Positions 40,084 to 45,112 of a stretch of 64,000 nucleotides of DNA are shown here, piece after piece (position 1 is the stretch's first letter; each line of letters starts with the position of its first letter). Location: NCBI RefSeq assembly GCF_025371035.1, contig NZ_JANZXB010000013.1, forward strand, positions 62,001 to 126,000. Direction: 5' to 3'. Under the pieces are notes generated by a model. It had not been told where the DNA came from. It worked only from the letters and a program-made list of their open reading frames with translations, and ran no database searches. A program made the position numbers and the translations under genes. This DNA is from Sphingomonas sp. LC-1 (GTDB taxonomy: Bacteria; Pseudomonadota; Alphaproteobacteria; Sphingomonadales; Sphingomonadaceae).

Positions 40084-41604
40084 ATGTTCGACAGCTTGAG
40101 CGATCGGCTTGGCGGCGTTTTCGACCGCCTCCGCGGCCGTGGTGCGCTGACCGAGGCGGATGTCCGTACCGCGATGCGCGAAGTCCGCGTCGCGCTGCTG
40201 GAGGCGGACGTCGCGCTGCCCGTCGCGCGCGACTTCGTCGACAAGGTCACCGAACAGGCGGTCGGCCAGAACGTCCTGCGTTCGATCACGCCGGGCCAGC
40301 AGGTCGTCAAGATCGTCCATGACGCGCTGGTCGCGATGCTGGGCGCGGATGCCAGCGAGCTTCTGCTCGACGTGACACCGCCCGCCGTCGTGATGATGGT
40401 CGGCCTTCAGGGTTCGGGTAAGACCACCACCACCGCGAAGATCGCCAAGCGGCTGTCGAGCGGGGCGATGGGTCGCGAGCGCAAGAAGGTGCTGATGGCG
40501 TCGCTCGACGTCAATCGCCCGGCCGCGCAGGAGCAGTTGGCGACGCTGGGTACGCAGGTCGAGGTGTCGACCCTGCCGATCATTAGCGGGCAGCAGCCCG
40601 TCGAGATCGCCCGCCGCGCGCTGCAGGCAGCCAAGCTCCAGGGCTATGATGTCCTGATGCTCGACACCGCCGGTCGTCTGCACGTCGACCAGGCGCTGAT
40701 GGACGAGATGAAGGCGGTGGCGGAGATCGCCCAGCCTCAGGAAATCCTGCTCGTCGTCGACTCGCTGACCGGTCAGGACGCGGTGAACGTCGCGACCAGC
40801 TTCTCGGAGCAGGTGCCGCTGACCGGCGTGGTGCTGACCCGTATGGACGGCGATGCGCGCGGTGGTGCGGCGCTGTCGATGCGGGCGGTCACGGGCAAGC
40901 CCATCAAGTTCGCCGGCGTCGGCGAAAAGATGGATGCGCTGGAAGCCTTCCACCCTGAACGGGTCGCGGGTCGCATTCTCGGCATGGGCGACGTCGTTTC
41001 GCTGGTCGAGCGCGCCGCCGAGTCGATCCAGCAGGAAGACGCCGAGCGCATGGCCAAGAAGATGGCCAAGGGTCAGTTCGACATGGACGACCTGCGCGGC
41101 CAGCTTCAGCAGATGCGCCGCATGGGCGGACTTGGCGCGCTGGCGGGCATGATGCCGGGCATGAAGAAGGCGCAGAACGCGCTGGCCGATGCCGGTGGCG
41201 ACAAGATCCTGCTCCGCATGGATGCGATCATCACCTCGATGACGCCCAAGGAGCGCGGCAAGCCCGAGCTGATCAACGCCAAGCGCAAGATCCGCATCGC
41301 CAAGGGTTCCGGCACCACGGTGCAGGACGTGAACAAGCTCCTGAAAATGCATCAGGAAATGTCCACGGCGATGAAGAAGATCAAGAAGATGGGCGGCATC
41401 AAGGGCATGATGTCGATGCTCGGCAAGGGCGGCCTTGGCGGTCTGGGCAATGCGCTGGGCGGTCCGCAGATGGGCGAAATGCTCAACAAGGCGGGCAGCA
41501 ACGGCCTGCCCGGTGGCGGCCTGGGTGGTCTGGGCGGCGGCAAGCTGCCCGACGGGATGCCCAAGCTGCCCCCCGGCTTCGAGAACCTTCTCAAGAAGAA
41601 ATAA
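40084..41604 (+). CDS. ffh: Signal recognition particle protein Ffh
   Basis: 506 residues. N domain, then G domain with GLQGSGKTTTTAKIA, LDTAGRLHVDQALMDEM and LTRMDGDARGG, and a methionine-rich M domain (about 330-430) that binds the 4.5S RNA and signal sequences. A long Gly/Met/Leu tail follows (GGLGGLGNALGGPQMGEML). It starts the ffh-rpsP-rimM-trmD-rplS order of alphaproteobacteria, and its RNA partner lies 31 kb to the left. Confidence 0.96.
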   Translation: MFDSLSDRLGGVFDRLRGRGALTEADVRTAMREVRVALLEADVALPVARDFVDKVTEQAVGQNVLRSITPGQQVVKIVHDALVAMLGADASELLLDVTPPAVVMMVGLQGSGKTTTTAKIAKRLSSGAMGRERKKVLMASLDVNRPAAQEQLATLGTQVEVSTLPIISGQQPVEIARRALQAAKLQGYDVLMLDTAGRLHVDQALMDEMKAVAEIAQPQEILLVVDSLTGQDAVNVATSFSEQVPLTGVVLTRMDGDARGGAALSMRAVTGKPIKFAGVGEKMDALEAFHPERVAGRILGMGDVVSLVERAAESIQQEDAERMAKKMAKGQFDMDDLRGQLQQMRRMGGLGALAGMMPGMKKAQNALADAGGDKILLRMDAIITSMTPKERGKPELINAKRKIRIAKGSGTTVQDVNKLLKMHQEMSTAMKKIKKMGGIKGMMSMLGKGGLGGLGNALGGPQMGEMLNKAGSNGLPGGGLGGLGGGKLPDGMPKLPPGFENLLKKK

Positions 41605-41660: not shown

Positions 41661-42044
41661 ATGGCTCTCAGCATTCGTCTGTCGCGTGGTGGCTCCAAGA
41701 AGCGCCCTTACTACCGCATCGTGGTGGCCGACGCCCGTGCGCCGCGCGACGGCAAGTTCATCGAGAAGATCGGCAACTACAACCCGCTGCTCGCCAAGGA
41801 CAACGACCAGCGCGTGCAGCTCGACACCGAGCGCGCCAAGCACTGGCTGGCCAATGGCGCGCAGCCGACCGACCGCGTCGCCCGCTTCCTGGACGCCGCC
41901 GGTGTCCGTGAGCGCGCTGCTCGCAACAACCCGAAGAAGGCCGAGCCGGGCGACAAGGCCAAGGAGCGCGCCGAGGAGCGTGCCGAGAAGCTGAAGGCCG
42001 CCGAGGAAGCCGCCAACGCTCCGGCCGAAACCGCCGAGGCCTGA
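41661..42044 (+). CDS. rpsP: 30S ribosomal protein S16
   Basis: 127 residues. The N-terminal 80 residues are the S16 fold ([20 protein letters not shown]); the charged Ala/Glu/Lys-rich C-terminal extension ([20 protein letters not shown]) is common in alphaproteobacteria. It lies 56 bp after ffh. Confidence 0.97.
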
Positions 42045-42153: not shown

Positions 42154-42294
42154 ATGACCCCGCCGACCGAACCCGATCCCCGGACCGCACCCGACGACAA
42201 TGACGACGCGACCAACCAAGGCGTCTCCGCCCCAGAACCCGTCGAAGGCGGCGATGACACCCCCGATGGCGACTCCGACTCGCCAGCCGGGTGA
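42154..42294 (+). CDS. Candidate acidic micro-protein upstream of rimM
   Basis: 46 residues, rich in Asp, Pro, Gly and Thr (EGGDDTPDGDSDSP), with no hydrophobic core. AGGAG stands 8 nt before the ATG, and the frame differs from rimM, whose start lies inside it. It could be a leader peptide whose translation opens the rimM start, or a chance frame. Length, composition and overlap make it uncertain. Confidence 0.35.
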   Translation: MTPPTEPDPRTAPDDNDDATNQGVSAPEPVEGGDDTPDGDSDSPAG

Positions 42295-42760
42295 ACCCCG
42301 CGTCACGCTGGCGGTGATTGTCGGCGCGCATGGCATTGGGGGCGAGGTTCGGCTCAAGGTCTTCGCCGAAGACCTGTCGGGCTATTCCGCCTTCAATGAC
42401 GGGGCATTGACCCTGAAATCGGTGCGGGAAGGCTCGAACGGCGTCATCGCGCGGCTGGTCGAGGTGACCGACCGCAATGCCGCCGAAGCGCTGCGCGGTA
42501 CGGAATTGACCGTGCCACGCTCGGCGCTCCCCCCGCTCGAAGACGGGGAATATTATCATGCCGACATCATCGGGCTTCCCGCGATCGCCAGCGATGGCGA
42601 GTCACTGGGCCAGGTGGTGCTGATCGAGAATTTCGGCGCGGGCGACGTGCTGGAAATCGAACGTCCCGATGGCCGCCGCTTCATGGTGCCGATGAAGGCG
42701 GAGGCGGTGCCCGAATGGGATCAGGACCGCCTGATCGTGGATCGCGCTTTCATCGCCTGA
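42254..42760 (+). CDS. rimM: 16S rRNA processing protein RimM
   Basis: About 168 residues; it binds S19 and helps mature the 30S head. N-terminal beta-barrel RimM domain (VTLAVIVGAHGIGGEVRLKV) and a PRC-barrel end (GEYYHADIIGLPAI, RRFMVPMKAEAVPEWD). The frame is open to 42200; the ATG at 42254 has GAAGG at 5 nt and the one at 42266 is also possible. The stop overlaps a convergent gene by 11 bases. Confidence 0.9.
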   Translation: MTPPMATPTRQPGEPRVTLAVIVGAHGIGGEVRLKVFAEDLSGYSAFNDGALTLKSVREGSNGVIARLVEVTDRNAAEALRGTELTVPRSALPPLEDGEYYHADIIGLPAIASDGESLGQVVLIENFGAGDVLEIERPDGRRFMVPMKAEAVPEWDQDRLIVDRAFIA

Positions 42761-43658
42761 TCGGCGTCTGCTCGTTGAGCAGGTTGCGGATGGTCGTCGC
42801 GGCGACCCCGGCCTCGCCCATGGCGTGGCTGATCTGATCCAGCCCCTTCACCACATCCCCCGCCGCGAACAGGCCGGGGATCGACGTGCGCTGATGGTCG
42901 TCCACCTCCAGGCAACCGCTCGGGTCGGCCCTGGCCCCCGCCGATACCGCCAGTTCCGATCGGATGCGGGATCCCATCGCCGGATAGACGCTGTCGAAGC
43001 GCATCCGCCCGTTCGCAGTGTCCAGCGCGAGGCAATCCCCCTCGATCGCCCAGCCGCCACAGGGGCCGTCCACGCGCGCGATACCGGCGTTGTCCAGCGC
43101 CGCGGCGCAGCGGGGATCGAGGTCATGTGCCGCATCCGGCGCGATCAACGTCACGTCGCGGGTGAAGCCGCGCAGAAACAGCGCCTCGCGCATGCCATGG
43201 TCGCTGGTGCCGATGACACCGACACGCTTGTCGGTCACTTCATAGCCGTCGCACACCGGGCAGTAGCGCAGCAGACCCCGCTGGAGCGCCGGATCATGGA
43301 CTTCGGGCAGCAGATGCTTGGGCCGGTGGTTGACGACACCCGTCGCCAGCAGCACCGTCCGGGTGAGATGGTCGCCCTGCTCGGTGGTGATGCGGAAATG
43401 TCCGTCTTCGGGATGGAGGCCGGTTACGCGTTGCGGAATGCAATGCGCGCCATAGCGCCTGGCCTGCTCGTGCATTCGGGCCAGCAGCGCCTTTCCGCTG
43501 ATCCCCTCGGGATAGCCGGCATGGTTGTGCGTGCAGGGGATCATCGCCGCGCGGCTCGATCCGCTGTCGAACATCCGGATTTTGAGATGGTAACGGGCGA
43601 GATAGATCGCCGCCGTCAGTCCGGCCGGGCCTGCGCCGATGATGATGCAATCGTCCAT
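42750..43658 (-). CDS. Thioredoxin reductase-like FAD/NAD(P) oxidoreductase
   Basis: 302 residues. FAD-binding GAGPAGLTAAIYLAR at the N-terminus, a CPVCDGYE redox cysteine pair in the position of CATC in TrxB, the NAD(P) domain with VGVIGTSDHGM, and the C-terminal GLFAAGDVV. The NADP motif is altered (GTSDHG instead of GGGDxA), and the CPVC pair and length fit the ferredoxin/thioredoxin reductase-like group rather than TrxB itself. The electron partner is unknown. It lies on the opposite strand, inside the ribosomal operon, so it is an insertion. Confidence 0.82.
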   Translation of the reverse strand: MDDCIIIGAGPAGLTAAIYLARYHLKIRMFDSGSSRAAMIPCTHNHAGYPEGISGKALLARMHEQARRYGAHCIPQRVTGLHPEDGHFRITTEQGDHLTRTVLLATGVVNHRPKHLLPEVHDPALQRGLLRYCPVCDGYEVTDKRVGVIGTSDHGMREALFLRGFTRDVTLIAPDAAHDLDPRCAAALDNAGIARVDGPCGGWAIEGDCLALDTANGRMRFDSVYPAMGSRIRSELAVSAGARADPSGCLEVDDHQRTSIPGLFAAGDVVKGLDQISHAMGEAGVAATTIRNLLNEQTPIRR

Positions 43659-43714
43659 GGCGAAGGCAAAGCACGAGCCTGCGCAACGTTCCTTGTCCGG
43701 CGGGGCGGTTCAAT

Positions 43715-43735
43715 GTATATACATGGTGTATATAC
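43715..43735. promoter_or_regulatory. Twin palindromic operator before vapB
   Basis: Two copies of the self-complementary GTATATAC (43715-43722 and 43728-43735), centres 13 bp apart, 9 bp before the vapB ATG and overlapping its likely ribosome-binding region. Antitoxins of this family bind such boxes to repress their own operon. Confidence 0.7.
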
Positions 43736-43744
43736 GGAGATTTT

Positions 43745-44017
43745 ATGGGCAAGGACTTTCAGGCCAAGGTCTTCCGCTCGGGCAACTCGCTCGCACTGCG
43801 CCTCCCCGCCGCGCTGGGTCTGACCGAGGGCACCGAGATGATCCTCCGCGAAGAGCAGGGGCGCTATGTGTTCGAGCCCGTCCAGGCGCCGCGCAAGACG
43901 ATCGACCTGACGGGAATTGCTGGGTCGATGCCGTGGCTGGAGCCGTTGACGCGCGAGGAACGCAAATTCGATGATCCGGAGCGTCCCTGGCATTTGCTGA
44001 ACGACAAGGACGCGTGA
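43745..44017 (+). CDS. vapB: Antitoxin VapB (AbrB/MazE fold)
   Basis: 90 residues. N-terminal swapped-hairpin DNA-binding domain (MGKDFQAKVFRSGNSLALRL), then a C-terminal tail with MPWLEPLTREERKFDDPERP that would wrap the toxin. It neutralises VapC and represses its own operon through the palindromes upstream. GGAG is at 5 nt from the ATG. The gene is 4 bp from vapC, inside the trmD operon. Confidence 0.85.
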   Translation: MGKDFQAKVFRSGNSLALRLPAALGLTEGTEMILREEQGRYVFEPVQAPRKTIDLTGIAGSMPWLEPLTREERKFDDPERPWHLLNDKDA

Positions 44018-44021
44018 AACG

Positions 44022-44396
44022 GTGCGATACCTGATCGACACCAACTGCTGCATCTTTTTGTTCGCCGGCCATTACCCCGCGCTTCTGGAACGTGTTGCCG
44101 CGACGCCGATGGGTGACATTGGCCTGTCGAGCATCGTCTTCGCCGAACTGGCGCTAGGTGTTCGGCATGGCAAGCCGCCGCTCGAACGACAATTGGAGCA
44201 GCTGGCGACGCAGATGCCGATCCTGCCATTCGACGAAGCGGCAGCGCGCTGCTATGCGCGGCTTCCCTTTCGTCGGGGACGGTTCGACCGGCTGCTCGGC
44301 GCTCATGCGCTTAGCTTGGGTAGTACGGTCATCACCGACAACGAGGCCGACTTTGCCGACATCCCCGGCCTGACCATCGAGAACTGGACGCTGTGA
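44022..44396 (+). CDS. vapC: Toxin VapC (PIN-domain ribonuclease)
   Basis: 124 residues, PIN fold. Acidic active-site residues are visible in [12 protein letters not shown] (Asp6), FAELALGV (Glu), the Asp in [11 protein letters not shown], and TDNEADF. The segment before the third Asp is shorter than in the usual VapC ([15 protein letters not shown]), so activity may be reduced. VapC toxins cut tRNA or rRNA. The TGA overlaps the GTG of trmD (GTGA), coupling an essential gene to the toxin's translation. Confidence 0.86.
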
Positions 44397-45112
44397 CCTT
44401 TCGCGCAACGATATTGACGCTCTATCCGGAGATGTTTCCGGGACCGCTCGGGGCTTCGCTGGCGGGGCGGGCGCTGCGCGAGGATCGCTGGGCGCTGGAG
44501 ACGGTGCAAATTCGCGACTTCGCCACCGACAAGCATCGCTCGGTCGACGATACCCCCGCTGGCGGCGGGGCGGGCATGGTGCTGCGCGCCGATGTGCTGG
44601 CGGCGGCGGTGGATTCGGTCGCCGACGACCGGCCCGTGCTGGCGATGACGCCGCGCGGGCGGCCCCTGACCCAGCCGCGCGTGCGCGAGCTGGCGGCGGG
44701 GCCGGGCGTCACCGTGCTGTGCGGCCGGTTCGAGGGGTTCGACGAGCGCCTGTTCGAGGCGCGCGGCATCGAACAAGTGTCGATCGGCGACTATATCCTG
44801 TCGGGTGGCGAGATGGGGGCGCTGGTGCTGCTCGATGCTTGCGTTCGGCTGCTTCCCGGCGTAATGGGCGCGGCTTCCAGTGGAGTCGAGGAAAGCTTCG
44901 AAAGCGGCCTCCTCGAATATCCGCAATATACCCGTCCTGCGGAGTGGGAAGGGCGCACGATCCCTGAGGTGCTGCGATCGGGGGATCATGCGAAAATCGC
45001 AAAATGGCGTCATGCCAGGGCTTGCGAGGATACACGGTCAAGGCGGCCGGACCTTTGGGAACGTCATGAGGGCGTTCGGGTCGGTCTCCCTCTGGCGCGC
45101 GGCGACGATTGA
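44393..45112 (+). CDS. trmD: tRNA (guanine-N1)-methyltransferase
   Basis: 239 residues, SPOUT knot methyltransferase making m1G37 in tRNA. Knot blocks: [33 protein letters not shown] and [15 protein letters not shown]; the C-terminal [11 protein letters not shown] is also typical. It starts with GTG and overlaps vapC. It is essential in most bacteria because it prevents frameshifts. Its position after rimM, with vapBC between, is unusual. Confidence 0.95.

Follow-up and report, generated by a model that had tools for sequence, protein, structure and literature searches.

A vapBC cassette at the rimM-trmD junction of Sphingomonas and its relatives, very probably coupled to trmD through an overlapping start codon and exchanged in place

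The tRNA (guanine37-N1)-methyltransferase gene trmD is preceded, in one Sphingomonas genome, by a toxin-antitoxin (TA) module of the VapBC type whose toxin gene runs into the trmD start codon. The locus lies in the window, which denotes the whole stretch of 64,000 nucleotides (nt) analysed here (Sphingomonas sp. LC-1, contig NZ_JANZXB010000013.1, positions 62,001 to 126,000); the nearest kin of this genome in a named genome collection include S. sanguinis, S. yabuuchiae, and S. paucimobilis. Open reading frames and profile models give the order ffh (40084-41604), rpsP (41661-42044), rimM (42200-42760), a reductase gene (42750-43658), vapB (43745-44017), vapC (44022-44396), trmD (44393-45112), and, downstream of it, rplS for ribosomal protein L19 (45124-45516), with only the reductase gene on the minus strand. 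Models PF01782 and TIGR02273 for rimM, NF000648 and TIGR00088 for trmD, and TIGR01024 for rplS all score above their cut-offs. The reductase gene, which splits rimM from vapBC-trmD and overlaps the 3' end of rimM tail to tail by 11 nt, encodes an FAD/NAD(P) oxidoreductase (PF07992, 102.8 bits) with a CPVCDG motif in its translation. By model TIGR01292 (164.4 bits, below the cut-off of 343.45) it is thioredoxin reductase-like (TrxR-like) only and no equivalog. The original prediction, made from the letters of the window, had described a vapBC pair and an opposite-strand reductase of this kind interrupting rimM and trmD, and both the order and the strands were confirmed. It had also pointed to an overlap of vapC with trmD, which is indeed present: the vapC TGA occupies 44394-44396 and the trmD GTG 44393-44395, so that the genes share 4 nt (hereafter, an overlap of -4). 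The coupling junction on the plus strand, in which the vapC tail (E N W T L stop) meets the trmD GTG, spans 44379-44401.

The toxin is readily recognised. VapC matches the PIN-domain model PF01850 with 46.3 bits against a cut-off of 23.6, and its nearest solved structures are VapC chains (5k8j, 3tnd, 3zvk, and others; best E value 1.4e-11). It scores below the cut-offs of the tRNA(fMet)-specific equivalog models (NF047863, 83.3 bits against 140; NF010285, 43.3 against 143). Its partner stays below all model cut-offs (PF04014, 21.7 bits against 24.7; NF040493, 19.7 against 60; NF047862, 20.2 against 100) and is called VapB-like on the strength of this weak match, its position, and the operator described below. 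This putative antitoxin would comprise an AbrB/MazE-like N-terminal part (residues 1 to about 70) and an exchangeable C-terminal tail. Its gene lies directly upstream of the toxin gene, from the vapB stop at 44017 to the vapC start at 44022, in a predicted single transcription unit. Moreover, VapC residues D6, E42, D89, and N107 are unchanged in 70/70 aligned copies from 64 regions of the genus, these copies having been collected by profile, a procedure that strongly degraded ones might escape. The conserved acidic residues D6, E42, and D89 are presumably the active site. In 13/13 pairs of the clade around the window, the ratio of nonsynonymous to synonymous divergence (dN/dS) of vapC is 0.02-0.07. 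VapC looks active and under strong purifying selection, and a dead remnant is ruled out by the invariant active-site residues together with the low dN/dS. One further PIN-domain match occurs in the genome of the window, on a different contig.

A paired operator, GTATATAC at 43715-43722 and its partner at 43728-43735 (13 nt from start to start), stands before vapB on the plus strand. It overlaps the -10 element of a candidate vapBC promoter read from the sequence at 43693-43721 (TTGTCC at 43693-43698, a 17-nt spacer, and TATATA at 43716-43721), and the Shine-Dalgarno motif GGAG follows. Across the genus, GTATATAC, paired with an identical or similar copy, precedes vapB in 59/64 VapC loci, with a spacing of 13 in 58 of these 59, and GTATATAC is absent from 397,447 bp of VapC-less regions. 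The module would thereby have a palindromic putative operator at its promoter, as type II modules have. The promoter itself is less uniform. A consensus promoter scan of the window does not report TTGTCC-17-TATATA, and among 49 operator-bearing loci TTG lies at -23/-22 relative to TATATA in 15 and at -20 to -18 in 33. A conserved -35 element at a single spacing was rejected, as TTG sits at two distances; a count limited to a spacer of 16-18 (17/55 loci, with 36 in one shifted control) proved misleading.

The arrangement is not peculiar to the window. Within the genus, trmD was located in 149 of 151 genomes and 138 regions, the majority extending about 4 kb upstream of it, were fetched, which together with the window make 139. 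VapC is encoded upstream of trmD in 64 of them, within 8 nt in 55, and at exactly -4 in 51 of these 55, which is beyond chance; when counted by genome, 51 of the 54 with vapC as neighbour show the same overlap. Extra genes or space separate vapC from trmD in the remaining nine regions. In the named genome collection, exact peptide patterns from the window's VapC, which detect close relatives only, found 25 VapC relatives, all 25 between rimM and trmD, with 19 overlapping trmD at -4, one joined as TGATG, and five having another reading frame between. Carriers include S. paucimobilis NBRC 13935 and Sphingobium jiangsuense. Furthermore, VapC matches were collected from 61 genomes of the genus and their coordinates matched by eye to those of trmD: 30/30 matches with at least 74 bits are found beside trmD, and 11/11 with at most 62 bits on contigs other than that of trmD. 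Within the genomes searched, the VapC alleles at trmD look like a family of their own, confined to this locus. Six of the 55 vapC-adjacent regions carry a second VapC. A second VapC of another type, ending W-F, lies about 700 nt upstream of trmD in L094, L102, L108, L116, L129, and L147, where the trmD-adjacent VapC is also present.

Outside Sphingomonas, 64 regions from 56 genera that were not picked by pattern (a non-random sample, as 27 of the regions are best TrmD matches) carry VapC in the rimM-trmD junction in 15 regions and 12 genera. In the pattern-picked genus g2, it is found in 6/6. When vapC comes last among the known genes ahead of trmD in these other genera, the overlap is -4 in 16/20 regions, or in 7/11 without the nine picked by DNA pattern. 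Compared in this way among related genomes, the arrangement recurs genus- and family-wide. A single recent insertion in the genome of the window is ruled out by this recurrence through the genus and in 12/56 other genera. A mobile vapBC acquired repeatedly from elsewhere is unsupported for VapC, the strong relatives of which were met only at trmD in the genomes searched. In L208, a metagenome-assembled genome, a phosphoesterase-like gene (identified by eye, from 4375 onward) stands between vapC and trmD and shares 4 nt with vapC.

The toxin at this fixed place is itself highly variable. The window falls in a clade of eight genomes, with TrmD sharing 97-99% identity with the window's copy. Two VapC types occur among them, in five versus three genomes, with about 50% identity to each other. 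Between the types, DNA compared with the window is 78-94% identical across four bins covering vapB codons from about 4 to 70; identity breaks inside vapB at about 43956, stays at 26-60% through the vapB tail and vapC as far as about 44255, and is 62-78% in the next two bins. The 50-column bin 44356-44405, with the last 41 nt of vapC and the first nucleotides of trmD, is 96-100% identical in all seven comparisons with the window. Across the genus, VapC is below 60% identical in 22 of 44 pairs with TrmD and L19 at least 97% identical, although these pairs are not independent, many coming from the clade around the window and at most five (those with L166, all below 60%) resting mostly on L19. In the same 44 pairs, VapB residues 1-69 have a median identity of 91% and the VapB tail 48%. 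For example, G133 and G060 share 98% of TrmD and L19, 50% of VapC, and 77% of the VapB N-terminal part, and the corresponding values for G008 and G105 are 96%, 46%, and 81%. When G009 and G066 are compared with G042, G085, and G037, or G104 with G058, VapC is 37-47% and the VapB N-terminal part 43-49% identical, which looks like replacement of the entire module. Identity of VapC correlates little with that of TrmD and L19 (Spearman 0.16; 1378 pairs, 53 genomes). Additionally, vapB and vapC are about 1.3 to 5 times more diverged at synonymous sites than the adjoining trmD in 13/13 pairs within the window's clade, as if cassettes were imported more frequently or trmD codons were under tighter constraint. 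These comparisons show the toxin and the antitoxin tail, and sometimes the whole module, exchanged in place between near-identical flanks. The recurrence in genus and family, the locus-confined VapC family, and the repeated replacement of the toxin in place go beyond what had been predicted for the window.

The variable cassette meets trmD in a constant manner. Shine-Dalgarno motifs were called by a duplex-energy limit of -4, which 27% of random 20-mers pass. One was found at trmD in 3/53 cases behind an adjacent vapC versus 28/34 beside a divergent reductase (Fisher p 9e-14, uncorrected for kinship), and an earlier grouping of the genomes gave 2/51 versus 43/62. The trmD of the window has none under this limit. 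An NTGA start, in which the stop of the upstream gene is embedded, is present in 74/75 coupled genomes (partly by construction) versus 16/34 divergent ones. Same-strand genes other than vapC and rimM that adjoin trmD in the genus share 4 or 1 nt with it in 19/19 cases. A serine hydrolase (c0; PF00144, beta-lactamase fold) takes the place of vapC in 12 regions, including L048 (2442-4004), with nine overlaps of -4 and three of -1, and a phosphoesterase (c1; PF00149) and a short frame (c12) precede trmD at -4 in 3/3 and 4/4 cases, respectively. These three groups were spotted by an automatic grouping of gene content that is noisy with shadow reading frames and had no other use. The tight rimM-trmD junction that had been taken as the norm is frequent in other genera, where rimM as the neighbour overlaps trmD in 10/15 cases (nine at -4 and one at -1); in the genus it does so in 1/3. 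Because trmD behind vapC mostly has no Shine-Dalgarno motif of its own, its translation very probably relies on coupling to vapC, a dependence that had been proposed for the window and is now well supported by comparison. The junction can be read as a coupling slot, used by rimM in many genera and by vapC here.

Transcription is harder to read. A dependence of trmD and rplS on the vapBC promoter is plausible in view of the strong conservation of the operator and of a divergent reductase near vapB, at most 200 nt away in 39/55 regions. In type II modules, repression drops once the antitoxin is degraded; TrmD and L19 would therefore rise, not fall, with toxin activity. Two weak terminator-like matches inside vapC are no more than chance. 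Among reductase-divergent genomes, CTTGCC is present within 60 nt in 14/34, which is suggestive only of a trmD promoter there.

The module can also be lost. VapC was not found in the stretch of about 4 kb upstream of trmD in 75/139 regions of the genus. On a tree of TrmD and L19, the presence or absence of an adjacent VapC requires 25 changes, at least 12 of them forced by starred branches, a count that does not give the direction. One VapC-less clade has kin that still carry vapBC (L082, L093), and within it a vapC tail, GAGAATTGGACGC(T/C), remains directly before the trmD GTG in nine genomes (L049, L053, L055, L057, L062, L064, L069, L072, and L077). In all nine, the tail ends an open frame of 19 codons that starts with GTG and overlaps the trmD GTG, possibly a leader peptide left by deletion of vapBC. 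L054, the tenth genome of this scar clade, retains a weaker vapC remnant only, and L196, of another genus, has the same vapC tail and an apparent degenerate operator. Most likely, vapBC was deleted at least twice, with trmD persisting without the module. Such losses come with a different start arrangement and may therefore be costly, in keeping with a price to be paid by rewiring, yet over evolution they are survivable.

These results are best brought together by the coupling-slot explanation, in which, as comparison shows, the trmD start (ATGA or GTGA) holds the stop codon of whichever same-strand gene lies upstream, be it rimM (as in many other genera), vapC, or at times the serine hydrolase or the phosphoesterase. 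In the window and its kin, comparison shows as occupant a vapBC module with a conserved putative operator and a VapC of the family confined, in the genomes searched, to this locus. Ribosomes finishing vapC would go on to translate trmD, which mostly has no Shine-Dalgarno motif of its own. Because the reductase gene points the opposite way, transcription of trmD-rplS probably begins for the most part at the vapB promoter-operator, and relief of VapBC repression would then raise TrmD and L19 alongside the toxin. The core flanks persist while the toxin is exchanged between species. In the window's clade, the DNA-binding part of the antitoxin, the operator, and the vapC tail are kept, and only the antitoxin tail and most of vapC change; in some other clades, the entire module differs. 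Homologous recombination in the flanks would be the simplest cause of replacement. Loss is possible and leaves trmD either with a Shine-Dalgarno motif of its own or fused to a vapC tail. As a whole, this explanation of a vapBC occupant, a coupled trmD, and a replaceable cassette is held to be probable, though well short of certain, and the locus is read as a polymorphic, locus-confined toxin-antidote cassette in the translation-coupling slot of an essential gene. A bolder version, rather doubtful at present, is that the trmD start locks the cassette in place. TrmD and L19 would be made only when the toxin is translated, derepression under stress would raise both, dropping or miscopying the cassette would cost the cell TrmD unless the start were rewired, and alleles would swap through recombination in the flanks. 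The result would be a drive-like element of the chromosome, confined to its locus, and not a mobile module.

Several observations weigh against the coupling-slot explanation, in addition to the dependence among the close pairs. VapB residues 1-69 are also below 60% identical in 9 of the 44 close pairs, and the constancy of this part is thus not universal. In 4 of the 11 unpicked other-genus regions with vapC last, vapC and trmD do not overlap, and further regions have another reading frame or a longer gap between the two. When the tree is taken into account, the contrast in Shine-Dalgarno motifs reduces to seven independent pairs (mean 3.4 for, 0.0 against, 3.6 equal), short of significance. 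In other genera, the motif is present in 4/9 reductase-divergent trmD genes versus 2/20 with vapC last, and the trmD of the scar clade lacks it as well (0/10). As to transcription, a scan of the window's plus strand from rimM to vapB yielded no terminator-like site; therefore, read-through from rimM is possible and the dependence on the vapBC promoter may be partial. Moreover, rimM and vapBC have no intervening reductase in nine unpicked other genera and in genus g2, and the promoter of the ribosomal operon can serve trmD there.

Several parts of this arrangement are familiar. VapBC modules, their autoregulation, operon overlaps, and fixed TA loci are already known kinds. The module resembles other type II VapBC modules in gene order, in a PIN toxin with conserved acidic residues, in a small MazE/AbrB-like antitoxin, and in a palindromic operator over a candidate promoter; it differs in the 4-nt overlap with a housekeeping gene, the single chromosomal slot, and the replacement of the cassette. 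A TA module with regulation extending past its own two genes is a shared feature, and the reach here would be in cis, through the operon and the overlapping start codon, onto trmD-rplS. With chromosomal TA loci at fixed places in E. coli it has in common fixed flanking genes, patchy presence, and horizontal turnover; none of those is known to share a start or stop codon with an essential gene, and trmD is essential in many bacteria. Polymorphic toxin-immunity loci of the contact-dependent inhibition (CDI) type, which have a constant body with an exchangeable toxic tip and immunity gene, are similar in the joint exchange of toxin and antidote parts within flanks that stay constant. They differ from the present locus, an intracellular TA pair with the DNA-binding half of the antitoxin and the 3' tail of the toxin gene, together with trmD, as constant parts in the window's clade. 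Among the open-licence papers listed, judged by title and opening of the abstract, none was found to describe a toxin family that occurs only at a housekeeping gene's start, is coupled to that gene through the stop codon, and is replaced as a cassette; the portions seen of PMC2701414, PMC6755753, and PMC3920265 contain none of the vapBC-trmD arrangement. Why chromosomal TA modules persist is a long-standing question, and 139 species of one genus offer a natural comparison, with the same housekeeping gene next to a module, a replaced module, only a scar, or none. With it one can test whether a toxin locus gains stability from coupling to an essential gene and whether the control of tRNA m1G37 methylation and L19 has come to include a TA promoter.

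Among the alternatives, a permissive slot without function survives best and is possible, if on the doubtful side. The junction would accept inserts that end at the trmD start, with vapBC as a passenger, coupling as a by-product, and no regulatory link between the toxin and TrmD or L19. The other occupants (c0, c1, and c12) with the same kind of overlap fit such a slot, as does the patchiness of adjacent vapC with its 25 changes on the tree; however, passengers would not need the confinement to one locus seen in 61 genomes, a kept operator and active site, or strong purifying selection. Allelic warfare or phage defence, with trmD coupling merely supplying constant flanks for recombination, might instead keep the cassette polymorphic. 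The divergent VapC of 22/44 close pairs, beside a VapB N-terminal part with its median of 91%, and the excess synonymous divergence of both genes are in line with this, but no PADLOC family matches VapB or VapC at an E value of 0.001. This second alternative, unlikely on balance as a separate account, is compatible with the coupling-slot explanation and not exclusive of it.

Next, trmD could have its own promoter and an unusual start of its own within the vapC 3' end, the overlap being historical and vapC translation irrelevant. A start signal could explain why the bin at 44356-44405 stays 96-100% identical even where the rest of vapC is of the other type, and the consensus promoter scan of the window gives one plus-strand match in vapB (43946-43975). 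Nevertheless, the same scan gives no match inside vapC, and a Shine-Dalgarno motif is missing in 50/53 cases, which makes this alternative quite improbable. Strict addiction, by which trmD and rplS could not be expressed without vapBC and the module would be fixed, can draw on the same 50/53 and on the reductase facing against the operon in the window, yet it is very improbable and, over evolution, largely refuted: the lethality of module loss that had been predicted is contradicted by the 75/139 VapC-less regions, the tree changes, and the deletion scars of two lineages, which mark survival after loss. As a minor point on trmD itself, the gene is in two overlapping pieces in L167 (G047) and has an irregular start in L166 (G082), through sequencing error or in reality.

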